Assembly (NCBI RefSeq): GCF_018780105.1
Contig: NZ_JADMKC010000002.1
Span: forward strand, 62,001-126,000
Reading direction: 5' to 3'
Source of the DNA: Thiobacillus sp.
GTDB taxonomy: Bacteria > Pseudomonadota > Gammaproteobacteria > Burkholderiales > Thiobacillaceae
DNA: 64,000 nucleotides
The notes under the pieces are model-generated. The model was not told where the DNA came from. It saw nothing but the letters and a program-made list of their open reading frames with translations, and did not search any database. The translations under genes were made by a program, and so were the position numbers. This document shows positions 18,406-35,697 of this stretch, piece by piece. Positions within the stretch are counted from its first letter, which is position 1, and each line of letters begins with the position of its first letter.

Positions 18406-24322
<5,917 letters not shown>

Positions 24323-24333
24323 GCCGCAGCATG

Positions 24334-24361
24334 CGCGATGGCGGCCACCGCCATCGCGTTT
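24334..24361 (+). terminator. Terminator hairpin after gltD
   Basis: An 11-bp perfect stem (CGCGATGGCGG / CCGCCATCGCG) with a 3-nt loop, then TTT, starts 11 bp after the gltD stop. An in-frame ATG at 24338 lies inside the stem, which argues that glrK starts downstream at 24407. Confidence 0.75.
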
Positions 24362-24406
24362 CCCCAATCGGGGTATGCTGCGACATTGCCAACGCCCTTC
24401 ATCCGG

Positions 24407-25849
24407 ATGCTTGCTGGCCCTTACTATCCCCGTTCGTTCACCATACTGGTCATCGTCGCCATGGGCGTGCTGATCGTGCCGTTGGCCAGCGGCCTGATCA
24501 ACGTGGTTCATGTGCTGCAGGGCGTGGTCGATACCCAGCGCCAGTTCACCCGCAACAGCCTTGCGATTACCCTCGAGGTGCGGCAGATCGTCGAATCGGT
24601 CAGCCAGCTGCAGCGCGCCGCCGGGCAATACCATCTGTTGCAGGATGCCGAATTCGGCGGCCCGCTGCGGATGCGTTTCGACGAGTTGCAAACGCAGTTG
24701 ACGCGCCTCGATGCACAACTTGTCGACGCGCCCACGCATACCACTCTGGCCGCGCTGCAAACGCGCAGCCGGGTGCTGTATCGCAAGCTGCGGCCCGGAA
24801 GCTTTCTCGACAGCGCGCAGTTCCATGCGCTCGCTCCCGAATTCGATGCGCTGCACACGGCCGCCCGCACCTTGCTCACCGAGGCCGACGCGTCGGTGCA
24901 GAGCGAATTGCGAACGCTGGAAGCGGCCATGCAAACCACCCGGCAGCGCCTGATCCTGCTGGCGCTGGCGCTGATTCCGTTGACGTTGCTGCTGGCGGCC
25001 GTGTTTTCCTGGCTTATCAACCGTCCGATCAAGCAGCTCAAGGCCTCGATCCAGCAGCTTGGCCGGGCCGACCTGAGCCCGCTGCAGGCGATCAGCGGGC
25101 CGCAGGACATCGTTGAACTGGGGCGCGAAATCGACTGGCTGCGGCAACGTCTGCACGCGCTGGAAGAGCAGAAGCTGCGCTTCTTGCGCCACGTCTCGCA
25201 TGAGCTGAAAACTCCGCTGGCGTCGTTACGCGAGGGGGTGGCCTTGCTGGACGACGAGCTGGCGGGCAGCCTCAACGCGCGTCAGCGCACCATCGTCACC
25301 ATCATGGACAGCAGCAGCCGCGACCTGCAGAAACGCATCGAGGACCTGATCCGTTACGGCAGCCTGGTGCGCGATGCCACCCTGCCCCCCACCCTGCCGC
25401 AGCAGGCGCTCGACGACGCGCTCGACAGTGTGCTGGCGCGTCACCGGCTCGCGCTCGATGCCCGCCGTATCCAGGTCGACACGCAACTGGCGGCGCCGAT
25501 GCTGCACGCCGAGCGGGGTCAGCTGGAAACCGTGCTCGACAACCTGCTGTCGAACGCCATCAAATTCAGCCCCGAAAATGGGCGCATCCTGATTCGCAGT
25601 GAACTTTCCACCGATGCCGCCATCCTTGATGTGTGCGACCAGAGCGGCGGCATTCCGCTCGCCGAGCGCAGCCGCATCTTCGAGCCCTTTTTCCAGGGCG
25701 CGCGCCAACCCGACAGCGCGGTCAAAGGCAGCGGGTTGGGGCTGTCGATCGTGCGCGAAACGCTGCTGGCCGCCGGCGGGACGATCGAGATCGTCGACAG
25801 CCCGCCCTGGACAACCTGCTTCCGCCTAACCTGGCCCTTGCCGCAATGA
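24407..25849 (+). CDS. glrK: Sensor histidine kinase GlrK (QseE)
   Basis: 480 residues from MLAGPYYPRSF (E. coli GlrK has 475). TM1 at ~10-33, a helical periplasmic sensor ~34-178, TM2 ~180-204, HAMP ~205-255. The HisKA phospho-His is at ~265 in RHVSHELKTPLASLREG, which closely resembles the GlrK H-box, and the ATPase domain contains NLLSNAIKFSP and GSGLGLSIV. It phosphorylates the sigma-54 activator GlrR; in enterobacteria this pair responds to the envelope state and controls glmY and rpoE. The stop overlaps the ATG of the lipoprotein gene (ATGA), and gene order kinase-qseG-glrR is as in E. coli. Confidence 0.9.
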   Translation: MLAGPYYPRSFTILVIVAMGVLIVPLASGLINVVHVLQGVVDTQRQFTRNSLAITLEVRQIVESVSQLQRAAGQYHLLQDAEFGGPLRMRFDELQTQLTRLDAQLVDAPTHTTLAALQTRSRVLYRKLRPGSFLDSAQFHALAPEFDALHTAARTLLTEADASVQSELRTLEAAMQTTRQRLILLALALIPLTLLLAAVFSWLINRPIKQLKASIQQLGRADLSPLQAISGPQDIVELGREIDWLRQRLHALEEQKLRFLRHVSHELKTPLASLREGVALLDDELAGSLNARQRTIVTIMDSSSRDLQKRIEDLIRYGSLVRDATLPPTLPQQALDDALDSVLARHRLALDARRIQVDTQLAAPMLHAERGQLETVLDNLLSNAIKFSPENGRILIRSELSTDAAILDVCDQSGGIPLAERSRIFEPFFQGARQPDSAVKGSGLGLSIVRETLLAAGGTIEIVDSPPWTTCFRLTWPLPQ

Positions 25850-26328
25850 CGTTTAAATCTGTTCTGCTTGCCGGTCTTCTGCTGGGTCTGGGTGCGTGTT
25901 CCGCCCTGCCTCCGCCCCAACCTGAGCGTCAGGCGCCCCGCATCGCCCCGTCCGAGCCCGGCGCTTCGGTGCTGTTGAGCGAACTGGTACGCGTGGCGGC
26001 CCTGTCTCCGGAGCAACGGCGGCGCGAACTGGCCAGTCTGGATGGCGGGCGCCGCCTCGACGACGTCAGGCGGTTTCAGCTGGCTGCGCTGGCGGAACGC
26101 GAAGACAGTACGGACGCCTATGAGCGCGGCATCAAGGCGCTGGCCGCGATGGAAGAAGGCGATCCCCGCACGCAGGCGCTGGTCGAGTTGTTGAAAAGGT
26201 CGCTCAAGGCACGTATCGAGATCAAGCAACAAACCCTGCGTGCGGAGGAGTTGCAGGACAAGCTCGATCAGATCAAGGCGCTGGAAAAGTCCCTGCAACA
26301 GCGCAGCACGCCAGGCAACGCGCCATGA
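25846..26328 (+). CDS. qseG: QseG-like lipoprotein of the GlrKR system
   Basis: 160 residues. The lipoprotein signal has lipobox LGAC at ~15-18 (MTFKSVLLAGLLLGLGAC), followed by a Pro-rich linker and an alpha-helical domain ending in a likely coiled coil (EIKQQTLRAEELQDKLDQIK). Position, size and character match QseG, the lipoprotein that interacts with GlrK in enterobacteria. Sequence alone would not identify it securely; the assignment rests on lying between glrK and glrR with 4-bp stop/start overlaps at both ends. Probably outer-membrane anchored. Confidence 0.75.
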   Translation: MTFKSVLLAGLLLGLGACSALPPPQPERQAPRIAPSEPGASVLLSELVRVAALSPEQRRRELASLDGGRRLDDVRRFQLAALAEREDSTDAYERGIKALAAMEEGDPRTQALVELLKRSLKARIEIKQQTLRAEELQDKLDQIKALEKSLQQRSTPGNAP

Positions 26329-27677
26329 AAAAACCTGCCATTCTGGTCGTCGACGACGACGCCTCGCTGCGCGAACTGATCACCTTGCGGCTGGAAGCCA
26401 ACGGGTTTCGGGTCGAGGCGGTGGGCAGCGGCGAAGCGGCGCTGGCGCAGCTGTCGGTGACGCGACCGGACGCCGTGCTGACCGACATGCAGATGGCAGG
26501 GATGGATGGCATGGCGCTGTTTCGCGCCATCCATGCGCGCGACCCGTCGCTGCCGGTGATCGTGCTGACCGCGCACGGCAGCATTCCGGACGCCGTGGCC
26601 GCCACCCAGCAAGGCCTGTTCGGCTATCTGACCAAACCCTACGACGCCCCCACGCTGGTCAGTTTGCTGAAACGCGCCACCTTGCTGGCGGGCAGCAGCT
26701 CCGACACGGGCGACGACAGCTGGCGCAGCGAAATCCTCACCGCCAGTCCGGCAATGGACACGCTGCTGGCCGAAGCCCGGCTGGCCGCGCAAAGCGAAGC
26801 CGCGCTGCTGATCCAGGGCGAGTCGGGCACCGGCAAGGAGTTGCTGGCGCGCGCGATTCACCATGCCAGTCCGCGCCGCGCCAAGCCCTTCGTCGCCATC
26901 AATTGCGGCGCGATTCCAGCCGAGCTGCTCGAGTCGGAACTGTTCGGCCACATGAAAGGTTCGTTCACCGGTGCGGGGCGCGATCATCCCGGCCTGTTCC
27001 TCAGCGCGCACGGCGGCACGGTTTTTCTGGACGAGATCGGCGACATGCCGTTGCCGCTGCAGGTCAAACTCCTGCGCGTGCTGCAGGAGGGCGAGGTGAG
27101 GCCGGTGGGCGCGACCGAAACGCGGGCGGTGGACGTGCGCATCCTGTCAGCCACCCATCGCAATCTGGAAGAAGCGATCGCCAGCGGCGAGTTTCGCGAA
27201 GACCTGTATTACCGCCTCAATGTGGTCAACCTGACGTTGCCGCCGCTGCGCGAACGGCGCGAGGACATTCCGCTGCTGGCGCGGCATTTCCTCACCCAGC
27301 TGACGGAAAAATACCGTCGCCGCATCCACGGCTTTGCGCCCGAGGCGCTGGAAATGCTGGTGGCGGCCGACTGGCCGGGCAATATCCGTCAGCTGCACAA
27401 TGTGCTGGAGCAATGCTGCGCGCTGTGCACTACGTCGACCATTCCGGCCAGTCTGGTGGCGCGCGCCCTGCGCGACAAGCCGGCCGACATTCAGCCGCTG
27501 GCGGAAGCGCGGGCGGCGTTCGAGCGCGATTACCTGATCACGCTGCTGAAGCTGACGCGCGGCCAGGTCAGCGAAGTGGCGCGGCTGGCGGGACGCAACC
27601 GCACCGAGGTGTACCGGCTGCTGGAGCGCCACGGCCTCACCCCCGCCCTGTTCAAGGGCCGCGACGAAACCGGCTGA
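26325..27677 (+). CDS. glrR: Sigma-54-dependent response regulator GlrR (QseF)
   Basis: 450 residues (E. coli GlrR 444). The receiver ~5-120 has phospho-Asp in DAVLTDMQMAGMDG and the GlrR-like run VLTAHGSIPDAVAATQQG. The AAA+ sigma-54 activation domain ~145-375 has Walker A GESGTGKE, GSFTGA in place of the canonical GAFTGA loop, and FLDEIGDMPLPLQVKLLRVLQ. A C-terminal Fis-type helix-turn-helix (QVSEVARLAGRNRTEVYRLLERHGL) completes it. In E. coli it binds TGTC-N10-GACA boxes; boxes of that form lie upstream of the next gene and of the bactofilin gene here, next to sigma-54 promoters. The ATG overlaps the qseG stop. Confidence 0.92.
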   Translation: MKKPAILVVDDDASLRELITLRLEANGFRVEAVGSGEAALAQLSVTRPDAVLTDMQMAGMDGMALFRAIHARDPSLPVIVLTAHGSIPDAVAATQQGLFGYLTKPYDAPTLVSLLKRATLLAGSSSDTGDDSWRSEILTASPAMDTLLAEARLAAQSEAALLIQGESGTGKELLARAIHHASPRRAKPFVAINCGAIPAELLESELFGHMKGSFTGAGRDHPGLFLSAHGGTVFLDEIGDMPLPLQVKLLRVLQEGEVRPVGATETRAVDVRILSATHRNLEEAIASGEFREDLYYRLNVVNLTLPPLRERREDIPLLARHFLTQLTEKYRRRIHGFAPEALEMLVAADWPGNIRQLHNVLEQCCALCTTSTIPASLVARALRDKPADIQPLAEARAAFERDYLITLLKLTRGQVSEVARLAGRNRTEVYRLLERHGLTPALFKGRDETG

Positions 27678-27755
27678 TTCCGGGCGCTGCCAGGCGATCA
27701 TCCAACAAGTAGCTTGGCCCCTGGTTTTGCGTGTGTTCGGCGCGTCTGGACGATT

Positions 27756-27773
27756 TGTCGTCAAGCCCAGACA
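27756..27773 (+). promoter_or_regulatory. GlrR-type box 1 upstream of EF-hand gene
   Basis: TGTC-N10-GACA, an exact match to the half-sites of the E. coli GlrR recognition sequence, just downstream of glrR. It lies 62 bp upstream of box 2 (about six helical turns), on the same side of the sigma-54 promoter. Confidence 0.55.
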
Positions 27774-27817
27774 AAAATCCCGCCCAAAAACAAGGGCATA
27801 CAAATCCCGCCTGAATC

Positions 27818-27835
27818 CGTCGCTGTCAGGCGACA
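27818..27835 (+). promoter_or_regulatory. GlrR-type box 2 upstream of EF-hand gene
   Basis: CGTC-N10-GACA, extended inward as CGTCGC-N6-GCGACA. One base off the TGTC half-site, but it shares the GC extension with the two boxes upstream of the bactofilin gene. It ends 85 bp before the -24 element, a typical enhancer distance. Confidence 0.55.
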
Positions 27836-27920
27836 AATACCCGCCCTAAACGGCAGCACGCGCTTGCCGGTCAGGCCTCGAGATCGGGCATCCACTTGAT
27901 TTAATGGATAAAAATAGAGC

Positions 27921-27936
27921 TGGCATGATCGTCGCT
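27921..27936 (+). promoter_or_regulatory. Sigma-54 (-24/-12) promoter of the EF-hand gene
   Basis: TGGCATGATCGTCGCT fits the consensus TGGCACG-N4-TTGCW with the invariant GG and GC dinucleotides spaced by 10 bp. Predicted start of transcription is near 27947, leaving a leader of ~47 nt before the ATG at 27994. The 316-bp stretch 27678-27993 holds no gene; besides this promoter and the two boxes it carries three CAAAT/CCCGCC-like repeats (27772, 27801, 27834). Confidence 0.65.
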
Positions 27937-27993
27937 CTATCCCTGTCGAGTGCATCTGCATTCACATCCATTTAACGACAGGAGTAAATCAAG

Positions 27994-28275
27994 ATGACTA
28001 CCTTTGACATTCGTATCCGCAATGCAGCCATTGTCACCCTGGTGTGTGCTTTCGCCGCCGCCCAGGCCTGGGCCGCTTCAACCAAGCCGGATTTCAAGGC
28101 CTACGACAAGAACAGCGACGGCATGATCAGCCTGGAGGAATTTGTTGAACTGGGCGGCAAAGGCCAGGACTTCATGACCGGCGACGTCAACGGCGACAAC
28201 CGCCTCAGCAGCGAAGAGTGGACCAAGATCGCTGCCAACACGGTACCTGGCAAGTCGCCCAGCAAGACACAGTAA
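27994..28275 (+). CDS. Secreted EF-hand calcium-binding protein
   Basis: 93 residues with a signal peptide (~1-28, cleavage after WAA). The mature part contains two canonical 12-residue EF-hand loops, DKNSDGMISLEE and DVNGDNRLSSEE, with Asp/Asn/Asp at positions 1, 3 and 5 and Glu at 12. It is predicted to bind two calcium ions in the periplasm. The RBS is AGGAG, 9-13 bp before the ATG. It is the first gene after the sigma-54 promoter at 27921 and is probably a GlrR target (inference). No enzymatic domain is present; role unknown. Confidence 0.88.
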   Translation: MTTFDIRIRNAAIVTLVCAFAAAQAWAASTKPDFKAYDKNSDGMISLEEFVELGGKGQDFMTGDVNGDNRLSSEEWTKIAANTVPGKSPSKTQ

Positions 28276-28359
28276 GCCAATACGCTGATCTTCAGACCCG
28301 ACACTGGCCGGACGCGCCCACACCGCGGGCGGCCAGCTCGAATCAATACAGGAGCACCT

Positions 28360-28701
28360 ATGCGCAAGACCACGCAATACCTCAATGACGAACACATGCA
28401 GTTGTACGAATGGTGCGGCGCCGGCGCCGGGACGATCTGCGACATCCCGGCACCATCGAAACGATCCACCTCCCGGCGTACGGCCTGCGGCGTGCTGGCC
28501 CTGATGGGCAGCTTGCTGATCTTGAGCGGTTGCACTACCCAGAGCCCGGCTGAACAGGCGCAGGGGCAGGCTGTCGAGGAAATGAAAATGAAAGCGGGGG
28601 CGCTGTATGAAGAAGACGCATCTAAACCGGCATCCGTACAATCGCCGGAAGCAGCTGGGTACGCGGTGGGTGAGGCGCCCGCAGAGCAGCCTGCCCGATA
28701 G
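28360..28701 (+). CDS. Hypothetical protein with internal lipobox-like membrane segment
   Basis: 113 residues, not recognised as any family. A hydrophilic N-terminal ~44 residues (with a WCGAGAGTIC segment) precedes one hydrophobic stretch ending LLILSGCTTQ, which looks like a lipobox at ~residues 55-58. The C-terminal half is Ala/Glu/Pro-rich and probably disordered. The RBS CAGGAG lies before the ATG. The long N-terminal extension before the hydrophobic segment is unusual for a lipoprotein; it could instead be a single-pass membrane protein. It is 84 bp after the EF-hand gene and may share its sigma-54 transcript. Confidence 0.6.
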   Translation: MRKTTQYLNDEHMQLYEWCGAGAGTICDIPAPSKRSTSRRTACGVLALMGSLLILSGCTTQSPAEQAQGQAVEEMKMKAGALYEEDASKPASVQSPEAAGYAVGEAPAEQPAR

Positions 28702-28825
28702 CACAGGCATGTGCCTGCTCGATGTGCGTGCGGTCAGGCGATACCGTATCCAGCGGCGGATCAAGAAATCGGCGGCGCGCCGTCATCGGCCGGTTTGATC
28801 TGCGGCGCCCGTTGATGAGGCGCAA

Positions 28826-28857
28826 GCAAAAAAGAGTCTCTCGAGACTCTTTTTTGC
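28826..28857. terminator. Bidirectional terminator
   Basis: A 15-bp perfect inverted repeat, GCAAAAAAGAGTCTC / GAGACTCTTTTTTGC, with a 2-nt loop lies between two convergent genes. The stem carries A- and T-tracts on both sides, so it works for either strand. Confidence 0.9.
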
Positions 28858-28906
28858 ACTGCGTTTTGCCTGCGCGGGTGGGGGTTGCAGGCGAAAAGCC
28901 GTTTGC

Positions 28907-29584
28907 TCAGCGGTAGCCGGGTTCGTTCGAGTTGTAGATGATCCAGGTCAGATACTGGCCGCTGCTGAATCCCGCCTGATTGGAAAAGATCAACCGTCCC
29001 TGTCCCTTGTAGGTCGCTTCCCAGCGCGTGGTGTCGCTGCCGAAATAGAAGGGAATGAAGGCTTTGCCGGTGACGTAGGCGCCCTGATCGGTAGGCTGGC
29101 CGACCAGATCGAATACCTGTTGCATCGGCATGCCGATTTTCAGTTTGGTGAAGCGGCTGCCCTTGACCGGGACGCCGGTGATTTCGCCCTGCCAGTCGTT
29201 GATGCCCTTGACCTGGGTGCCTTGTCCCGCTTCGACCTTGCTGGAGTCCGTCACCGGCGTGTTTTTCGACAGGTCGTAACCGCCGGCTGCCACCGCAACC
29301 GTAGCCGGTTTGGCCGCCGTGGGGGCGGGTTTGACGCAAGCCGGATCCTGCGTCGGCTTGGCCTTGGTTTTGGAATTCTTCTTGCTGCTTTTGGCCGGCG
29401 CCGTGTCCTTGCAAACCGGCGTCTGGGCAGCAGCCGGCTGCGGAGCCGCCTCGGCCGGAGCCGCCGAAGTCGCCGTGGGCGCGGCTTCGGTCGGCCGGGT
29501 TTCGGTGCTGAGGCAGCCGGACAGGCTCAGGCCTGCAGCCAGCAGGATAAACAGGAGGGAGGCTTGTGAATGTGCGTGTGTCAT
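28907..29584 (-). CDS. Lipoprotein with BamE/SmpA-like C-terminal domain
   Basis: 225 residues. A lipoprotein signal peptide with lipobox LSGC (~21-24) is followed by a long Ala/Pro/Lys-rich linker (~28-100) that probably spans the periplasm. The C-terminal domain (~110-225) contains KLKIGMPMQQVFDLVGQPTDQG, the start of a SmpA/OmlA/BamE-like fold, then a beta-rich part with WEATYKGQGRLIF. It is probably an outer-membrane lipoprotein; its partner is unknown. It is followed by the bidirectional terminator and is read from its own promoter, in the same direction as the upstream DUF805 gene. Confidence 0.75.
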   Translation of the reverse strand: MTHAHSQASLLFILLAAGLSLSGCLSTETRPTEAAPTATSAAPAEAAPQPAAAQTPVCKDTAPAKSSKKNSKTKAKPTQDPACVKPAPTAAKPATVAVAAGGYDLSKNTPVTDSSKVEAGQGTQVKGINDWQGEITGVPVKGSRFTKLKIGMPMQQVFDLVGQPTDQGAYVTGKAFIPFYFGSDTTRWEATYKGQGRLIFSNQAGFSSGQYLTWIIYNSNEPGYR

Positions 29585-29638
29585 GGTCGATCCGGAAGTC
29601 AGTTGAACAAGATTGGTCTGTAAGCCTGCGGGCAGTCG

Positions 29639-30010
29639 CTAAGCCGCTACCCCTTTGGGGTTCGCACCGTGCTGATTGTCGCCGGGTGTGCCGTCGAGCA
29701 GCATGAATACCAGCAGCACGATCGCGCCGAGCAGGGGCACCAGACCGATCAGCAGCCACCAGCCGCTGCGGTCGGTGTCGTGCAGGCGGCGCACCGTCAC
29801 CGCCAGGCTGGGAACCAAAACCGCCAGCGAGTAGAGGCCGCTCAGCAAGCCGATGCCGAGTTCGGCATCCAGCAAGCCCGTCATGAAATCGATAGCCGTG
29901 AGCACCACGCTGGCGATCAGGTTGAACAGGATGAAAAACCAGTACTCCTTGCGGCGGGCGCGGCCCTTGAATACCGCGTATTGCTTGAGAACATTGAGAT
30001 ACCAGTTCAT
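29639..30010 (-). CDS. DUF805 inner-membrane protein
   Basis: 123 residues starting MNWYLNVLKQYAVFKGRARRKEYW, the signature start of DUF805 (YhaH/YhaI family), followed by four hydrophobic segments and the conserved VRRLHDTDRSGWWLL. The family is common in proteobacteria with no defined function. 54 bp separate it from the downstream lipoprotein gene, so the two may be cotranscribed. Confidence 0.92.
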   Translation of the reverse strand: MNWYLNVLKQYAVFKGRARRKEYWFFILFNLIASVVLTAIDFMTGLLDAELGIGLLSGLYSLAVLVPSLAVTVRRLHDTDRSGWWLLIGLVPLLGAIVLLVFMLLDGTPGDNQHGANPKGVAA

Positions 30011-30121
30011 GTTTTTCCCTGTTGGCTGAAGTGTGTGGCATGGCTGAAGTTGTCAGGCCATCGGTTTTGCGTCGTGTGAAATGCGTGCAGCGCAACGATA
30101 CACCGGCGCGTCCTGCGTGCG

Positions 30122-30958
30122 TCAGGCCTGATGGGTGAAATCTGTCGTTGCAGCGTTTGCGTTCAGCCGGTTTCGTATCCGCCCGATCAGCTCCGAAGCC
30201 GTCAGTCCTTCCGGGCCCAGACCGTCCGCGACTGCATCGTCCGCTGCCTGGCCGTGCAGCCATACCGCCAGCCGCAAGGCGTCTGCGGGCGGCAGGCGCG
30301 CCAGAAACGCGGCCAGCATGCCGGTCAGCACATCGCCCATGCTCGGCGCGCTCAGGGCCGGATTGCCGCTTGCATTGATCGAGACGGTGCCATCGGGCTG
30401 CGCCAGCACCGAGCCCGCGCCCTTCAGCACCACCCAGGCATGGAATGTCGCCGTCAGTTGCCGCGCCGCCTGTTCGCGGTTGGCCTGAATCGCGTCGGTG
30501 CGGGTGTGGAGCAAACGCGCAGCCTCGCCTGGGTGCGGCGTCAGTAGCGTCGGCGCGGTCCGCCTGGCACACGCTTCGGCCAGATCCCCGTGTTGCGCCA
30601 GACCGTTCAAGCCATCCGCATCGATCACCAGCAGCCCCGGGTGGCGCAAGGCGACCTGCAGCAGATCGACGGCCGCGCGCGTCTGTCCCAGCCCCGGCCC
30701 GATCGCCAGTACCGTCAGGCCGGGATCGTTTACCAGTGTTTCGGGCGGTGCAAACATCAGTTCGGGCGCGCAGAAATCGACGTGGACAGCCGCATCCAGC
30801 ACGCCCAGCGTCACCCGCCCCGCGCCGCATTGCAGCGCCGCCCGCCCCGCCAGCAGCGCTGCGCCCACCATGCCCGGCGCCCCGCCGACGATACCGACGT
30901 GGCCCAATTGCCCCTTGTGGCTGTCGTGCGGGCGGGGCGGCAGCAGCGGCGGGGTCAT
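30122..30958 (-). CDS. nnrD: ADP-dependent NAD(P)H-hydrate dehydratase, stand-alone
   Basis: 278 residues, a ribokinase-like carbohydrate-kinase domain: HKGQLGHVGIVGGAPGMVGAALLAGRAAL at the N-terminus, LAIGPGLGQT, LVIDADGLN, LTPHPGEAARLL and the catalytic NPALSAPSMGDVLTGMLAA. It repairs (S)-NADHX/NADPHX using ADP. In E. coli the activity is the C-terminal half of the bifunctional Nnr (YjeF) protein; here the epimerase half is absent and not adjacent. The start is taken at MTPPLLPP. Its ATG overlaps the stop of a short upstream reading frame (ATGA). Confidence 0.93.
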   Translation of the reverse strand: MTPPLLPPRPHDSHKGQLGHVGIVGGAPGMVGAALLAGRAALQCGAGRVTLGVLDAAVHVDFCAPELMFAPPETLVNDPGLTVLAIGPGLGQTRAAVDLLQVALRHPGLLVIDADGLNGLAQHGDLAEACARRTAPTLLTPHPGEAARLLHTRTDAIQANREQAARQLTATFHAWVVLKGAGSVLAQPDGTVSINASGNPALSAPSMGDVLTGMLAAFLARLPPADALRLAVWLHGQAADDAVADGLGPEGLTASELIGRIRNRLNANAATTDFTHQA

Positions 30959-31080
30959 GGCCGTGAGTCCACTGCGCCGACGCGGTCGAGCGCGATCATC
31001 CACGTCGGGTAATCGATCACCCTTTCGTGCTCGCGGACCGTAAGCACGCTGCGCAGCATCATGTTCAAGTATCGGGTCAC
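30955..31080 (-). CDS. Possible small ORF coupled to nnrD
   Basis: A 41-codon frame from a GTG, product VTRYLNMMLRSVLTVREH and onward to DRVGAVDSRP. The TGA overlaps the nnrD ATG, the same coupling used by real genes in this window. The frame is open 14 codons further upstream without a usable start (GWRLWARLEGRH). Not recognised; it could be a short leader, a real small protein or the remnant of a longer gene. Weak evidence: only the overlap and protein-like composition. Confidence 0.3.
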   Translation of the reverse strand: MTRYLNMMLRSVLTVREHERVIDYPTWMIALDRVGAVDSRP

Positions 31081-31181
31081 GTGGCGTCCCTCCAGTCGGG
31101 CCCAAAGGCGCCAGCCCGCACGGTATTTGTGTCAACTGTCGGCGCTGCCCTAAATTATGGGCTGTTTATGCACGATATACA

Positions 31182-31210
31182 GCGTACATGTGCGTTCAAG
31201 CCATGTACGC
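31182..31210. repeat. Inverted repeat upstream of the PilZ gene
   Basis: GCGTACATG / CATGTACGC, perfect 9-bp arms with an 11-nt spacer, 88 bp before the PilZ-protein ATG. It may be an operator or a leader hairpin. The rest of the ~340 bp between nnrD and the PilZ gene holds only the weak small ORF. Confidence 0.5.
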
Positions 31211-31297
31211 GCGCCAAGGCGCGAGTCGGGGCCCGGCCTGCAAATTGCGCAGGGGGCCGTGTTGAGACAAGCATGACAAATTCCGAGCAGGCAAACG

Positions 31298-32032
31298 ATG
31301 TCCACAGTACTTGATGAGGCCTCTCTCAAAACGGGCAAGCCAGAACCCTCCCCGCGTGACGCCGGTCCGCTGACGCTCGACCAGATCAAGCTGAATATCG
31401 GCGACGCCATCCAGTTGCAGTTCCAGTCCGATGTCGAGCCGTCGCGCTGCTTCGTCACCCTGATCGGTTATCTGGAAGGCCAGAGCGTCGTTGTCACCAC
31501 GCCCATCCTCAATGGCAGCATGATGCTGGTGCGCGAAGGGCAGGATTTCGTGGTTCGCCTGTTCAGCGGAAAAAGCGCCTACGCCTTCGCTGCCAGTGCA
31601 AAGCGCGTGACCAACACGCCTTACCCTCACCTGCATCTGACTTACCCCAAGGAAGTGCGCGGCATGGTCGTGCGCGGCAGCTCGCGCGGGCGTACCCACA
31701 TCATCTGCCACGCCACGGTCGAAGGCGGGCGCGGTCATGCATGCATCGCGCGCGACATCAGCATCGGCGGCGCACTGATCGCCGCCAGCGAGAAAATCGG
31801 CGAGGTCGGCAAGCTGCTCACGCTCAAGCTGCGCGTCAAGGTCGGCGAGGCCGAGCACGTGCTGGCCTTGAACTGCATGATTCGTTCAGTGAATGCCTCG
31901 CGTCCCACGGTGGACGAAAAGCCCACCGTCCTGCACGGACTGTCGTTCGAAGACGTGACCGGCCAGGACACCCTGGTCATCTCGGCCCTGCTTTACCAGA
32001 ATATGATCAGTGCGCAGGAAGTGGATGGCTAG
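31298..32032 (+). CDS. PilZ-domain cyclic-di-GMP-binding protein (YcgR-like)
   Basis: 244 residues. An N-terminal YcgR/PilZN-like beta domain (~25-125; IKLNIGDAIQLQF...SAYAFAASAKRV) is followed by a PilZ domain (~130-240). The two cyclic-di-GMP motifs are present: RxxxR (RGSSR, in VVRGSSRGRTHI) and D-x-S-x-x-G (ARDISIGGALI). This layout is that of flagellar-brake proteins, which slow motility when cyclic-di-GMP is high; no flagellar genes are nearby, so the effector target here is not known. Confidence 0.9.
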   Translation: MSTVLDEASLKTGKPEPSPRDAGPLTLDQIKLNIGDAIQLQFQSDVEPSRCFVTLIGYLEGQSVVVTTPILNGSMMLVREGQDFVVRLFSGKSAYAFAASAKRVTNTPYPHLHLTYPKEVRGMVVRGSSRGRTHIICHATVEGGRGHACIARDISIGGALIAASEKIGEVGKLLTLKLRVKVGEAEHVLALNCMIRSVNASRPTVDEKPTVLHGLSFEDVTGQDTLVISALLYQNMISAQEVDG

Positions 32033-32060
32033 CAGGTAACGCCATTCAAGCGGTGAGCCA

Positions 32061-32097
32061 GCAAAAAGGCCGGGAGTGTTGCTCCCGGCCTTTTTGC
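32061..32097. terminator. Bidirectional terminator between PilZ and FadL-like genes
   Basis: A 16-bp perfect stem (GCAAAAAGGCCGGGAG / CTCCCGGCCTTTTTGC) with a 5-nt loop lies between two convergent genes. A/T tracts on both sides allow it to act on both strands. Confidence 0.93.
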
Positions 32098-32112
32098 GAT
32101 CACGCCATCAGA

Positions 32113-33267
32113 TCAGTACGAATAACTGTACATCAGTTGCCAGTTCAACTGGCTGTGGGTGATCTGCATGCCGCCGTTGCCAAAAGGCATGGCCGGGCCG
32201 CTGCCGGTCACCGTCACTTCCGGGGCATAGCTCAGCGCGAAGTTGAGGTCGGACTGTTTGCTGAAGGCATAGCCAAAGCCCACCGTGTAGTGATCCTCGA
32301 CGATCGCCGGCCACAGGTAGCTGACGTTTTCATCCGGAATCGGATTGCTGCCGTGGTTGTAGCCGATGCGGCCGGTGAGCGCGTCGGTAAACAGGTAGGA
32401 CAGGCCCAGTGCCACCACGATCTGGTCATCCCAGTTCTGCACGAAAGGCACCGCGCCACCGGCGGGCGTATTGATCGTCACGGTATTCATGCTGCTGCTC
32501 CACAGCAGGTCCTTGACGTCGGCTGCAACCATCAAGCGGTCGCTCGCCTGCCAGGCCAGGCCGAGGCCCAGCGTGACCGGCATGTCGAAGCCGTCCACCG
32601 AGTAGCCGCCGCCTTTGAGATCCGGCAGGTTGCCCGCGGTCTGGTACACGCCGCCAATCGTGAAGGTGTCGTCAATCTTGTAGGTGAAACCGAGCTTGGC
32701 GGCCAGGCTGTAGCCTTTGGCTTCGCCGGTGAAATCGCTGTCGTCCTCGAAATCGAGACCGGCCCCGCTGAACACCAGATCCATCCCCGCCCAGACGGCA
32801 TCGATGCTGCCGCCGATGTTGAAGCGGTCATTGACCTGATAGGCCACGGGGAAAATCAGGCGGCCGACGCTCACTTGCGCCATGTCGCCATTGGCGTATT
32901 CACTGCCCATGCCGCCCTGACCGTAGATGCCCACGCCGTAGCTCAGCGCGCCCTGTTTTTTCACGTAACCGAAAGCGGGTCCGTAGAAGGCGTCGGCGCT
33001 GGAGTCGCCCCTGCTGCCGGGTGCGGACACATCGGGGCCGACGAAGCCCACCATTGCGTCCACCCGGCTGCCATCCGTCATCAATCCGAGCGTGGCGGGG
33101 TTGTTCGCCATCGCGGCCGTGCCGTTGTCATAGGCCAGGGCGGCGCCGCCCATGCCTTGGGCAATCGGGCCGTAGGCCTCCATCAGCATGCCGTTGGTGG
33201 CTGCGGCCAGGCCAGGCACAGCCATTCCCACCACGGCGAGCGCGGTTGCGAGTTTATTCAATTGCAT
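32113..33267 (-). CDS. FadL/TodX-family outer-membrane channel
   Basis: 384 residues with a signal peptide (~1-22, AAA|TNGML). FadL features: NGMLMEAYGPIAQGMGGAALAYDNGTAAMANNPATLGL (the family's N-terminal hatch and NPA motif), repeated beta-strands such as LGLGLAWQASDRLMVAADVK, and a C-terminal aromatic residue (Tyr). The family imports hydrophobic compounds (fatty acids, aromatic hydrocarbons) through the outer membrane. Somewhat shorter than E. coli FadL (446). It is a single gene; substrate unknown. Confidence 0.85.
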   Translation of the reverse strand: MQLNKLATALAVVGMAVPGLAAATNGMLMEAYGPIAQGMGGAALAYDNGTAAMANNPATLGLMTDGSRVDAMVGFVGPDVSAPGSRGDSSADAFYGPAFGYVKKQGALSYGVGIYGQGGMGSEYANGDMAQVSVGRLIFPVAYQVNDRFNIGGSIDAVWAGMDLVFSGAGLDFEDDSDFTGEAKGYSLAAKLGFTYKIDDTFTIGGVYQTAGNLPDLKGGGYSVDGFDMPVTLGLGLAWQASDRLMVAADVKDLLWSSSMNTVTINTPAGGAVPFVQNWDDQIVVALGLSYLFTDALTGRIGYNHGSNPIPDENVSYLWPAIVEDHYTVGFGYAFSKQSDLNFALSYAPEVTVTGSGPAMPFGNGGMQITHSQLNWQLMYSYSY

Positions 33268-33456
33268 TGGGGTCTTTCGAGGAGAGGGAGGTTATGAACG
33301 GGCGAGATTCTAACCGGTTTTTTTTCAAGCCCGTGTGGGCACGGGTGATTTTTCGAGCGTTCCGGGCCGGTGGAAAAACCCCTATAAAACAGCAGGGAAT
33401 ACGCGGCTCGGTTCAACCCCATGCATGAAGCGTCCGGGCGCCCGGGCGGTCACTGC

Positions 33457-33495
33457 AAAAAAAAGGGTTTACGCGTCTTGCTTACGCGCAAACCC
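33457..33495 (-). terminator. Terminator after the bactofilin gene
   Basis: On the minus strand GGGTTTGCGCGT / ACGCGTAAACCC (one mismatch, 7-nt loop) is followed by eight T residues, ~90 bp after the bactofilin stop. It indicates a monocistronic transcript. The rest of the 316-bp gap to the FadL-like gene holds a CCGGGCGCCCGG palindrome (33434-33445) and no gene. Confidence 0.85.
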
Positions 33496-33583
33496 CATTC
33501 GCCTATCGGGCAGGATGCGATCCGACCCCGACGTCACGCTGTCGCTCCTCAACGACATGCGCGCATCGATGTGTCGACTCGCC

Positions 33584-34225
33584 TTAACGTCGCCCCGCCA
33601 GATTGCGTGCCAGCGTGGAGCCGAAATGAATCTGCTCCAGTTCCGGCTCCTGCGTGGACGCTTCGGCCACGTCAGGTGTCGGGGTTTGCACAGCGGCTTC
33701 CGGCAGCTTGGCCAGGCTGGGTCCGGTAGCAAGCCGTTGCACATCCCCGGAAAGGGTGCCCCCCTCTTCGATCATCATCGCGCCATAGCGGATCACGCCG
33801 GTGACCTTGCCGGTGGCGTAAATCACCAGCCGTTTGCGGGCGGTCAGCTCGCCCTCGAAGATTCCGCGCACCTCCGCCACGTCGATCTCGGCCTTGCCCG
33901 AAAACACGCCGCCCTCGGCGATGCGAATGTCGCGGCTGTTCATCGACGCTTCCACGCGGCCTTCCACCACCAGGATTTCGCAATCGGTGATTTCCGAGCC
34001 TTTCAGCTTGATGTTCGGGCCGACGATGAGTTTGCTGCCCTCCTCGTTCCGTGCGTATTGGGCGGGGTCCTGCGGCAGGGCTTCCGGGGCGGCTTCAACG
34101 GCCTTGGCCGTCACGGCAGCCTTCGGGGCTTCGGCGGGTTTGACCGGGTAGCCCGCATGGCTCGTCTTGGTCGAGTCGGTTTTCGATTGGCCAGAATGGC
34201 CAGGTTGCATGAAGGATTTGAGCAT
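33584..34225 (-). CDS. Bactofilin (polymer-forming cytoskeletal protein)
   Basis: 213 residues. A central bactofilin domain (~62-165) is a right-handed beta-helix of short repeats: GSKLIVGPNIKLKGSEITDCEILVVEGRVEAS, GGVFSGKAEIDVAEVRGIFEGELTARKRLVIYATGKVTGVIRYGAMMIEEGGTLSG. Unstructured Lys/Ala-rich N-terminal and Glu/Thr/Pro-rich C-terminal tails flank it, as is usual. Bactofilins self-assemble into membrane-associated filaments that position cell-wall or envelope machinery. The gene is preceded by a sigma-54 promoter and two GlrR-type boxes, and is followed by its own terminator. Confidence 0.92.
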   Translation of the reverse strand: MLKSFMQPGHSGQSKTDSTKTSHAGYPVKPAEAPKAAVTAKAVEAAPEALPQDPAQYARNEEGSKLIVGPNIKLKGSEITDCEILVVEGRVEASMNSRDIRIAEGGVFSGKAEIDVAEVRGIFEGELTARKRLVIYATGKVTGVIRYGAMMIEEGGTLSGDVQRLATGPSLAKLPEAAVQTPTPDVAEASTQEPELEQIHFGSTLARNLAGRR

Positions 34226-34303
34226 GGGCTGGGTCTCTCTCGGATACGGGGTGGTAAAACGCTCTGGTGTGGTTGCGACCAGAATTGGGCGCAGTCCTCA
34301 ATT

Positions 34304-34319
34304 AGCAATACACGCGCCA
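34304..34319 (-). promoter_or_regulatory. Sigma-54 (-24/-12) promoter of the bactofilin gene
   Basis: Read on the minus strand TGGCGCGTGTATTGCT matches TGGCACG-N4-TTGCW with one mismatch and the invariant GG-N10-GC spacing. Predicted transcription start is ~34293, leaving a ~67-nt leader. It is the best sigma-54 promoter match seen in the window. Confidence 0.8.
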
Positions 34320-34393
34320 GCACTGAAAACCTGTTTATAAACAGTCAGATAAGGAATTTTCTTGGGGGAGTCGGGGTGAAAAATCGGGCAAAT

Positions 34394-34411
34394 CGTCGCC
34401 GAATGGCGACA
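34394..34411 (-). promoter_or_regulatory. GlrR-type box, proximal, upstream of bactofilin
   Basis: CGTCGCC-GAAT-GGCGACA on the plus strand, a CGTC-N10-GACA box with the same GC extension as the distal box. It begins 74 bp upstream of the -24 element of the bactofilin promoter. Confidence 0.6.
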
Positions 34412-34471
34412 GCCCGAGCGGCCGAATTCAAAACTACTTCAATAAAACAAGAACTTGGGCGTGTTTGCGGC

Positions 34472-34489
34472 TGTCGCCAGATGGCGACA
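34472..34489 (-). promoter_or_regulatory. GlrR-type box, distal, upstream of bactofilin
   Basis: TGTCGCCA-GA-TGGCGACA, a perfect palindrome (10-bp arms counting flanking C/G, 34471-34490) that fits TGTC-N10-GACA exactly. It lies 78 bp upstream of the proximal box, in the gap before the macrodomain gene. Confidence 0.65.
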
Positions 34490-34515
34490 GGTGCTATGCC
34501 GTGCGTGACATCAGC

Positions 34516-35028
34516 CTACGCTTCGGCAAGCAGTGCCTGGTAGACGGCGAGGTCGGCCGCTGAATTACAGCAAAAAATCACTTCGCAGATGGCGGGAAAC
34601 TCCAGCACAGCGGCGCGCACCGTCGCCACCGCTATCCCCGCGGCGAGCGCGACCGGGTAGCCGTAGACGCCGCTGCTGATGCCGGGGAACGCCAGGGTGT
34701 GGAGGCCGTGCTGCGCCGCGACCTCGATCGCGCGCCGGTAGCACGAGGCCAGTAATTCCGCTTCGCCCCGAGCACCGCCGTGCCAGACCGGGCCCACAGT
34801 GTGGATGACAAACCGGGCCGGCAACCGATAGCCCGGCGTGAGTTTGGCGTCGCCCGTCTGGCAGCCGTGCAGTTGGCGGCATGCGCCCAGCAATTGTGGT
34901 CCGGCCGTGCGATGGATCGCACCGTCCACCCCGCCGCCGCCGAGCAGTGACGCGTTGGCGGCATTGACGATGGCATCAACCGCGAGCGTCGTGATATCGG
35001 CCTGAATGGCGTGCAATGTGGCGGGCAT
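34516..35028 (-). CDS. ymdB: Macrodomain protein, O-acetyl-ADP-ribose deacetylase type
   Basis: 170 residues, a single macrodomain starting at [39 protein letters not shown], with the family's NAAN and GGGVDGAIH loops, then [12 protein letters not shown] and [14 protein letters not shown] around the ADP-ribose pocket. YmdB-type enzymes hydrolyse O-acetyl-ADP-ribose or remove ADP-ribose from proteins and, in E. coli, modulate RNase III. No ADP-ribosyltransferase or toxin gene is adjacent. Single gene; the region 35029-35175 after sodC holds nothing recognised. Confidence 0.92.
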
Positions 35029-35175
35029 GCTTCAAGGGTCTCCCAATCAAGCTGGGCATCAGGCTTTTCAAGCGCGAGGCGTCGTGTCCCGCGCCGGCAT
35101 GCCGGGCACGCCGCAAGGTTTGCGGATCGAGCCCAGGCAAGCCAATGGGGTTTGGCCCCATCTACTCCTGGCGCA

Positions 35176-35697
35176 TTACCTCGACACGCCGCACGCCATG
35201 CGCGCACCGCCGCCGCCCAGCGCAGCCGGGTGATCGGAATGGTTGTCGCCGCCGACGTGAACCATCAGCGAGCGCCCTTTCATGTCTGCCATTTTCAGGC
35301 GCGGTGCCAGAACCGGCTGGCTGGCATTGCCGCTGGCATCCACGAACAGCGGCGGCAGATCGCCCAGGTGGCCATCGCCCCACGGCGTGCCGTGGCGATT
35401 GGTGTTTTGCGGGTCGAAATGGCCGCCCGCGGCCAGTGCCGGAACCATCTTGCCGTCCTTGTCCTTGGGCATGCAGCTGGGATTGGCATGCACATGGAAA
35501 CCATGCAATCCCGGCGTCATGCCGTTGAGGGCTGGAGTGAACACCAGGCCATACGCCGATTCGCTGACCGTGACCTGACCGACAGATGCGCCAACGCCTT
35601 TGTCATCAACCAGCGTCATCGGAATAACGATGTCCGCCAGCGCCGAAAACGACGCAACGCTCAACAGGACTGCGGCAACACTAACTTGAACCTTCAT
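35176..35697 (-). CDS. sodC: Periplasmic Cu,Zn superoxide dismutase
   Basis: 173 residues with a signal peptide (~1-21). The metal ligands are all present: [11 protein letters not shown] (two Cu His and the disulfide Cys), GGHFDP (bridging His region), GDGHLGDLP (Zn His/Asp) and [11 protein letters not shown] (Cu His); the partner Cys is in ARMACGV. It converts superoxide to peroxide in the periplasm. The upstream 293 bp (35698-35990) contain no gene and no clear promoter that I could assign. Confidence 0.96.

Follow-up and report, generated by a model that had tools for sequence, protein, structure and literature searches.

This locus raises the question of what switches on a bactofilin gene, a subject on which little was found in the literature. 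The analysis covered a stretch of 64,000 nt (hereafter called the window; contig NZ_JADMKC010000002.1, positions 62,001–126,000), and the coordinates below are window positions unless stated otherwise. A preliminary description of this DNA had placed two palindromic boxes of the GlrR type and a sigma-54 promoter upstream of a bactofilin gene; the positions were confirmed, and the open reading frame belongs to PF04519. The features are collected in Table 1.

Table 1. Features of the bactofilin promoter, the glr genes and the second site in the window.
Feature	Position	Strand	Sequence or basis
Bactofilin gene (213 aa)	33584–34225	−	PF04519, 60.6 bits against a cut-off of 27.9
Predicted RNA hairpin at the 5' end of the bactofilin leader	34274–34293	−	TGCGCCC / GGTCGCA
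Sigma-54 −24/−12 element	34304–34319	−	TGGCGCGTGTATTGCT, exact GG-N10-GC
Proximal GlrR-type box	34394–34411	−	TGTCGCCATTCGGCGACG, read from the sequence
Distal GlrR-type box	34472–34489	−	TGTCGCCATCTGGCGACA, 0 mismatches to TGTCG-N8-CGACA
Macro-domain gene	34516–35028	−	Upstream neighbour, same strand as bactofilin
glrK-like sensor kinase gene	24338–25849	+	41% identity to E. coli GlrK over residues 209–500
Small lipoprotein-like gene in the qseG position	25846–26328	+	Position; N-terminal lipobox by eye
glrR, sigma-54 response regulator gene	26325–27677	+	55% identity to E. coli GlrR, 443 columns
Second-site distal GlrR-type box	27756–27773	+	TGTCGTCAAGCCCAGACA
Second-site proximal GlrR-type box	27818–27835	+	CGTCGCTGTCAGGCGACA
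Second-site sigma-54 element	27921–27936	+	TGGCATGATCGTCGCT, joint score 6
EF-hand protein gene	27994–28275	+	Pfam EF-hand_5, 43.9 bits; behind the second site

The gap upstream of the bactofilin gene (34226–34515) holds both boxes and the −24/−12 element. Direct reading of the minus strand agreed with the spacing of the −24/−12 element described earlier, and the element has one mismatch to a TGGCAC-N5-TTGC-like sigma-54 pattern. Two palindromes of the form TGTC-N10-GACA had also been described; this is exact for the distal box, while the proximal box differs at the outermost base (TGTC-N10-GACG). Transcription of bactofilin is predicted to start near 34293, which places the centres of the distal and proximal boxes at about −187 and −109, respectively. 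The macro-domain gene upstream runs in the same direction as bactofilin, so that the bactofilin gene is the one the site faces. The possibility that the boxes serve the macro-domain gene was considered and rejected: that gene ends before the boxes, and among the same-genus loci it was found upstream of bactofilin only in L016 and L017, so the neighbour varies and the promoter module remains in front of bactofilin. This genome encodes the DNA-binding domain of RpoN (PF04552), as do 38 of 40 genomes of the genus.

By its Pfam match and its modelled beta-helix fold, the 213-aa protein is a bactofilin. The structure model has a mean pLDDT of 70, with most of the core above 90 and strands over residues 65–164. 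The best two Foldseek matches of the predicted core were 2n3d (BacA) and 6rib (a Thermus bactofilin), both at a probability of 1.00, with TM (target) values of 0.81 and 0.84 and E-values of 0.017 and 0.019, respectively; no Foldseek match reached 0.001, and a sequence-profile search of the PDB with the bactofilin alignment returned nothing at E 0.001. The predicted core has the same fold as BacA and the Thermus bactofilin.

The combination of a double box with a −24/−12 element is correctly observed and goes beyond chance. In the joint scan, boxes were required 60–230 bp upstream of a GG-N10-GC site and each site was given a score. The window contains one site with a score of 8 (34304), one with a score of 6 (27921, before the EF-hand gene) and three others at 3. 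In 60 shuffles of the window, the mean number of sites was 1.5 at a score of at least 3 and 0.017 at a score of at least 5, none scored 6 and the maximum was 5. Over 1.61 million strand-bases surrounding the genes of 48 other enhancer-binding proteins, the same scan found 14 sites scoring at least 3 and one scoring at least 5. Moreover, the window has nine matches to TGTCG-N8-CGACA with up to one mismatch, where shuffles give 3.3 ± 1.6.

The opposite explanation, that the palindromes and the promoter-like string are chance or neutrally conserved sequences without function, draws on the behaviour of the single parts. The −24/−12 pattern alone is not enriched in the window (14 matches with up to two mismatches against 17.9 expected), and a single box with TGGC-N9-GC has 13 places in the whole genome, fewer than the 24 of its reversed counterpart. 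Across 40 genomes of the genus, the reversed control of a single box with a loose promoter was likewise higher overall. The box alone gave 394 genome-wide matches against 313 for the reversed control (one mismatch), and the longer box form gave 539 against 518 (three mismatches). Loose genome-wide patterns exceed their reversed controls little or not at all, and the signal rests on the double box, the spacing and the conservation. The joint score of 8 strongly disfavours an origin by chance, as do the conserved columns and the near-fixed spacing presented below, and we give this explanation hardly any likelihood.

A genome-wide scan for a box and a promoter had been proposed in the preliminary description; the pattern scan left two credible sites among its 13 places, those of bactofilin and the EF-hand gene. 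These two are the only ones among the 13 places to score at least 6. A further candidate target on contig C37 (score 5) was rejected; on inspection by eye it resembles coding sequence. Sites with a divergent −12 sequence would escape this pattern, so the regulon of this genome may be larger than these two sites. On another contig of the same genome (L209 2287–2810; C14, about 170.8–171.3 kb), two tandem copies of a box and sigma-54 element resemble the EF-hand site; no clear gene lies behind them, and they are perhaps decayed duplicates.

Of the 60 relatives in the genus sample (this genome included), 36 are members of the genus; a bactofilin match was obtained in 28 of these, giving 27 usable loci and a single remnant. 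A GG-N10-GC site with up to two mismatches to TGGCACGNNNNTTGCW is present in each of the 27 same-genus loci. Two boxes with up to two mismatches are present in 25 of the 27, the proximal box being weaker in L036 and L037; a proximal box with three mismatches was recorded in 2 of 28 measured loci. An alignment of 29 loci was made from these 27, L213 (from the genus) and L214 (from another genus of the family). The distance between the distal and proximal boxes, measured in 28 of the 29 loci, is 78 bp in 24, 88 bp in three and 77 bp in one, and in the 29th locus (L038) the boxes are 76 bp apart. The proximal box lies 92–93 bp from the −24 element in 28/28 measured loci. In the alignment, the information content of the box arms is 1.5–1.6 bits (1.6 for the distal box) and that of the −24/−12 element 1.3 bits, against a mean of 0.63 for the other upstream columns. 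An AT-rich element beside the −24/−12 element also reaches 1.3 bits, and the leader has a mean of 1.1 bits.

Several further elements of the promoter region were recorded. The predicted leader hairpin shows moderate covariation in an analysis of 25 leaders (4 of the 29 left out) in which the shuffles ignore relatedness: in the 8-pair helix, both sides have changed in 12 cells, where shuffles give 4.9 (0/500 as high), and four pairs have a double change against 2.5 in shuffles (81/500 as high). No confident IHF site was found in the 29 bactofilin promoter loci; in 13 of them the best IHF-like string sits 20 bp upstream of the −24 element, and in eight the best match was reached by up to 6% of shuffles. 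A TATC-N4-TGTTT string recurs in many relatives at two places, some 14 bp past the distal box and some 32 bp ahead of the −24 element; in the window, only the second copy matches well (34339–34351, minus strand).

The genes of the candidate regulator lie in the same window. The preliminary description had named a glrK-qseG-glrR cluster 7–10 kb away; glrK and glrR are present and lie 6.6–10 kb from the bactofilin promoter, while the qseG label is positional only, the middle gene having no detectable similarity to E. coli QseG (BLASTP E 0.14 over 20 residues). The glrK-like protein contains HAMP, HisKA and HATPase domains, and its match to E. coli GlrK covers the cytoplasmic half. The best NCBIfam match of the response regulator is GlrR NF011695, with 580.7 bits, which is below the cut-off of 763 bits. 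By sequence, the protein is a GlrR-like orthologue and not the curated NF011695 equivalog; with the score below the cut-off, the name rests on identity, gene order and the recognition helix. The helix motif RNRTE-Y-LL, which the window GlrR shares with E. coli GlrR, is found in 32/32 GlrR loci and in 0/48 loci of other bacterial enhancer-binding proteins, the 80 fetched loci having been split by their identity to the query (at least 53% against at most 48%).

Within the genus, 26 of the 27 genomes whose bactofilin locus is usable have a GlrR match of at least 86% identity, several of these matches being fragments at contig ends, and the GlrR of G007 was found only at a looser threshold. Among the nine genus genomes without a usable bactofilin, only G022, G023 and G035 have GlrR (Fisher 0.0003 against 26/27), and in these three there is no bactofilin match. 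In G026 the promoter is present and neither GlrR nor the neighbouring gltD was found in the assembly; as gltD is missing too, an assembly gap is likely but unproven. No glrK was found in G006, G026 and G029 in a search run without a positive control. G006 and G029 (99% and 97% complete, respectively) keep gltD, and no glrR was found in them, nor any GlrK match in the 1.5 kb behind gltD; the bactofilin of G006 is reduced to a remnant (within residues 6–119), and G029 has no bactofilin match. In the other four genomes without both genes the absences are weak evidence because these genomes are only 75–84% complete.

The association was also followed in 300 genomes of the order, of which 59 have a bactofilin match (E 1e-20), 121 a GlrR match (E 1e-130) and 47 both. 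The counts and Fisher values at this level ignore phylogeny, and relatives are not independent: GlrR occurs in 47 of the 59 bactofilin genomes against 74 of the 241 other genomes (p 8e-12), and a box and promoter with a score of at least 3 stand upstream of bactofilin in 28 of 47 genomes with GlrR against 0 of 12 without it (Fisher 0.00015). At a score of at least 5 the numbers are 21/47 and 0/12, and these 21 genomes represent eleven families, a breadth that again argues against chance. When the 28 positive regions were compared with 100 shuffles of their own, 26 were never equalled, G129 was equalled once and G309 five times. Relaxing the −12 sequence to GT or GA, a look taken at the 14 regions having a box and not at all 59, changed the counts to 31/47 against 1/12 (Fisher 0.0006). 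The preliminary description would have given up its proposal if the boxes were not conserved upstream of bactofilin orthologues; instead, all 27 genus loci keep them and the sigma-54 element at nearly fixed spacing (the proximal box being weak in two), and in the order box and promoter occur in 28/47 genomes with GlrR and in 0/12 without detected GlrR.

Among the 47 genomes with GlrR, 19 lack a joint match; three of these gain one with GT at −12, and in several others boxes are present and the promoter is not recognisable. GT or GA in place of GC at −12 was seen in L234, L236, L256 and L248 (G226, G190, G287 and G257, respectively), in which a sigma-54-like element follows the proximal box at 82–94 bp and the box pairs are 66–67 bp apart. 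GlrR was not detected in G257, which has a box pair and TGGCACGATGCTTGAT and scored 2 in the strict scan, nor in G189, which has a lone perfect box upstream of bactofilin; in G207, also without detected GlrR, the scan covered only 387 upstream bases. GlrR may have been missed in such genomes because only five candidates per genome were scored. The two genes are within 7 kb of each other in 9 of the 47 genomes with both. Of the 32 GlrR neighbourhoods fetched from named records, three (those of Dechloromonas denitrificans ATCC BAA-841, a Propionivibrio MAG and a gammaproteobacterial MAG) contain a bactofilin gene, with boxes and a sigma-54 element, at a distance of 2.4–2.6 kb from glrR.

That bactofilin is kept in the 12 genomes without detected GlrR fits another reading, in which bactofilin is mostly made from a sigma-70 type promoter and GlrR control of the sigma-54 promoter is minor or conditional. 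There is no direct counter-point to it; what can be set beside it is the conservation of the boxes, the −24/−12 element and the AT-rich element over the other upstream columns, with the leader between them. We consider this reading doubtful, and sigma-54 control by GlrR remains the preferred one.

A different question is whether GlrR is the protein that binds. Another regulator of the NtrC family could bind the palindromes and activate the sigma-54 promoter, given that these genomes hold several sigma-54 activators other than GlrR (7–14 matches each in eight genus members without a full-length GlrR) and that G257 has the module with no GlrR found there. Against this, the box matches one upstream of E. 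coli glmY. The K-12 gene has three upstream boxes, 18-mers whose first bases are at −230, −197 and −134 relative to the annotated start of glmY and which include TGTCGCTTTCTGGCGACA, and TGGCACAGTTACTGCA begins at −27; the distal box of the window, TGTCGCCATCTGGCGACA, nearly equals TGTCGCTTTCTGGCGACA. The available text of two sources gives the QseF/GlrR consensus as TGTCN10GACA (PMC8745638) and as TGTN12ACA, with three sites and assistance by IHF (PMC6075780). Moreover, the module tracks GlrR in the order, although G042, which lacks GlrR, had 76 first-look candidates of the family. The absence of the GlrR helix motif from all 48 other loci and the occurrence of a similar site directly after glrR, described next, also point away from another regulator, which we regard as improbable; GlrR is thus retained as the likely activator.

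The second site lies directly downstream of glrR. Thirty same-genus glrR loci were fetched, 29 of them with DNA behind glrR, and in 29/29 two boxes (up to two mismatches) 62–64 bp apart are followed by a sigma-54-like element. GlrR very probably drives the EF-hand gene there as well. A further box is found at the glrR stop in 17 of the 29 loci, followed 82–94 bp on by a sigma-54-like element. A DUF1328 gene after glrR was seen by eye in 18 of 19 stretches inspected (the 17 with the extra box, L168 and L184; it is absent in L168) and was confirmed by Pfam at four exact loci. In many relatives (within L161–L182), this gene for a small membrane protein has its own box and sigma-54-like element, starting at the stop codon of glrR; it is not at that place in the present genome. 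The TATC-N4-TGTTT string (up to one mismatch) occurs in 2 of the 19 stretches after glrR.

In Herbaspirillum, Chitinimonas, Dechloromonas, Janthinobacterium and Duganella, a BON-domain gene with a similar promoter follows glrR, and in a Methylophilaceae MAG (L046 6075–6617) glrR is followed by an EF-hand and BON fusion, likewise with a similar promoter, which unites the two protein types that occupy this position in other genera. From these arrangements, the bactofilin promoter looks like part of a wider betaproteobacterial GlrR regulon. A GlmY-like small RNA between glrR and the EF-hand gene of relatives was considered and rejected, as the gap holds the DUF1328 gene. The Rfam search of window positions 24000–35400 returned six matches, all below the gathering scores of their families. 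Weak matches to CsrC (24.6 against 61 bits), Thr_leader (30.6 against 55 bits) and ar35 fall at 31988–32153, between the converging PilZ and FadL-type genes, and are probably terminator hairpins.

Taken together, activation of bactofilin by GlrK/GlrR and sigma-54 from the predicted promoter is highly likely. Sigma-54 RNA polymerase would transcribe the gene from the −24/−12 element. Phosphorylated GlrR would bind as dimers to the two palindromes, centred at about −109 and −187, and, via DNA looping, remodel the sigma-54 polymerase, so that transcription is switched on. The GlrK kinase, encoded 7–10 kb away, would supply the signal, perhaps together with the product of the adjacent lipoprotein gene, and the transcript would start near 34293, at the leader hairpin. 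The layout of the site, its near-fixed spacing and conservation, the association with GlrR and the near identity of the box to one of E. coli glmY are observed directly. Binding by GlrR, dependence on GlrR and RpoN, activation as the direction of control and the envelope nature of the signal are what we infer from the DNA.

If this is true, an envelope sensor kinase is tied directly to a cytoskeletal protein, GlrK/GlrR gains a clear job outside the enteric bacteria, and its signal becomes testable with a simple bactofilin reporter. In a broader proposal, betaproteobacterial GlrK/GlrR would be a sigma-54 switch for envelope maintenance with structural direct targets (a bactofilin, an exported EF-hand or BON-domain protein whose gene adjoins glrR, and a small DUF1328 membrane protein), and the enteric control of GlmY would be a later specialisation of an older cytoskeleton and envelope regulon; we find the case for and against this proposal evenly balanced.

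No link between bactofilin and GlrR/QseF was found in the literature searched, in which subscription journals are thinly covered and earlier reports may exist; to this extent, the earlier statement that no report of a bactofilin under GlrR/sigma-54 control was known holds. The same literature yielded nothing on GlrR in Betaproteobacteria. In the available portions of the sources, a bactofilin is a protein partner of VemR (PMC9218911), bactofilin and RpoN occur together (PMC6501431), the membrane targeting of bactofilins is treated (PMC12448750), and GlrR/GlrK are listed in Acidithiobacillia, section 17 naming no targets (PMC12194929). The available text of PMC3162934 contains no mention of cytoskelet, CcmA, DUF583, YfhA or polymer-forming. 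What appears to be new here is bactofilin as a very probable target of a known kind of GlrR/sigma-54 promoter, in Thiobacillus-like bacteria and many relatives.

Among known systems, Rhodobacter offers a likeness in that NtrX, like GlrR a two-component envelope regulator, binds near a bactofilin operon; it is a different regulator, however, and the expression value given for bactofilin in the available text is 0.06 with p 0.99 (PMC7240162). In enteric bacteria, where it contributes to the upkeep of the cell envelope, GlrK/GlrR is described, as far as the available text goes, through the small RNA GlmY and rpoE (PMC8745638, PMC6075780). In E. coli, QseF also activates the sigma-54 promoter of rpoE, an envelope-stress gene that, like bactofilin, codes for a protein (PMC6075780); the target there is a sigma factor. 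A close counterpart is the GlrR/QseF-dependent promoter of E. coli glmY, with a near-same palindrome in several upstream copies, a −24/−12 element and genes for GlrK, a lipoprotein and GlrR nearby. There, three boxes stand before a small RNA, whereas in the window two boxes stand before the gene of a cytoskeletal protein.
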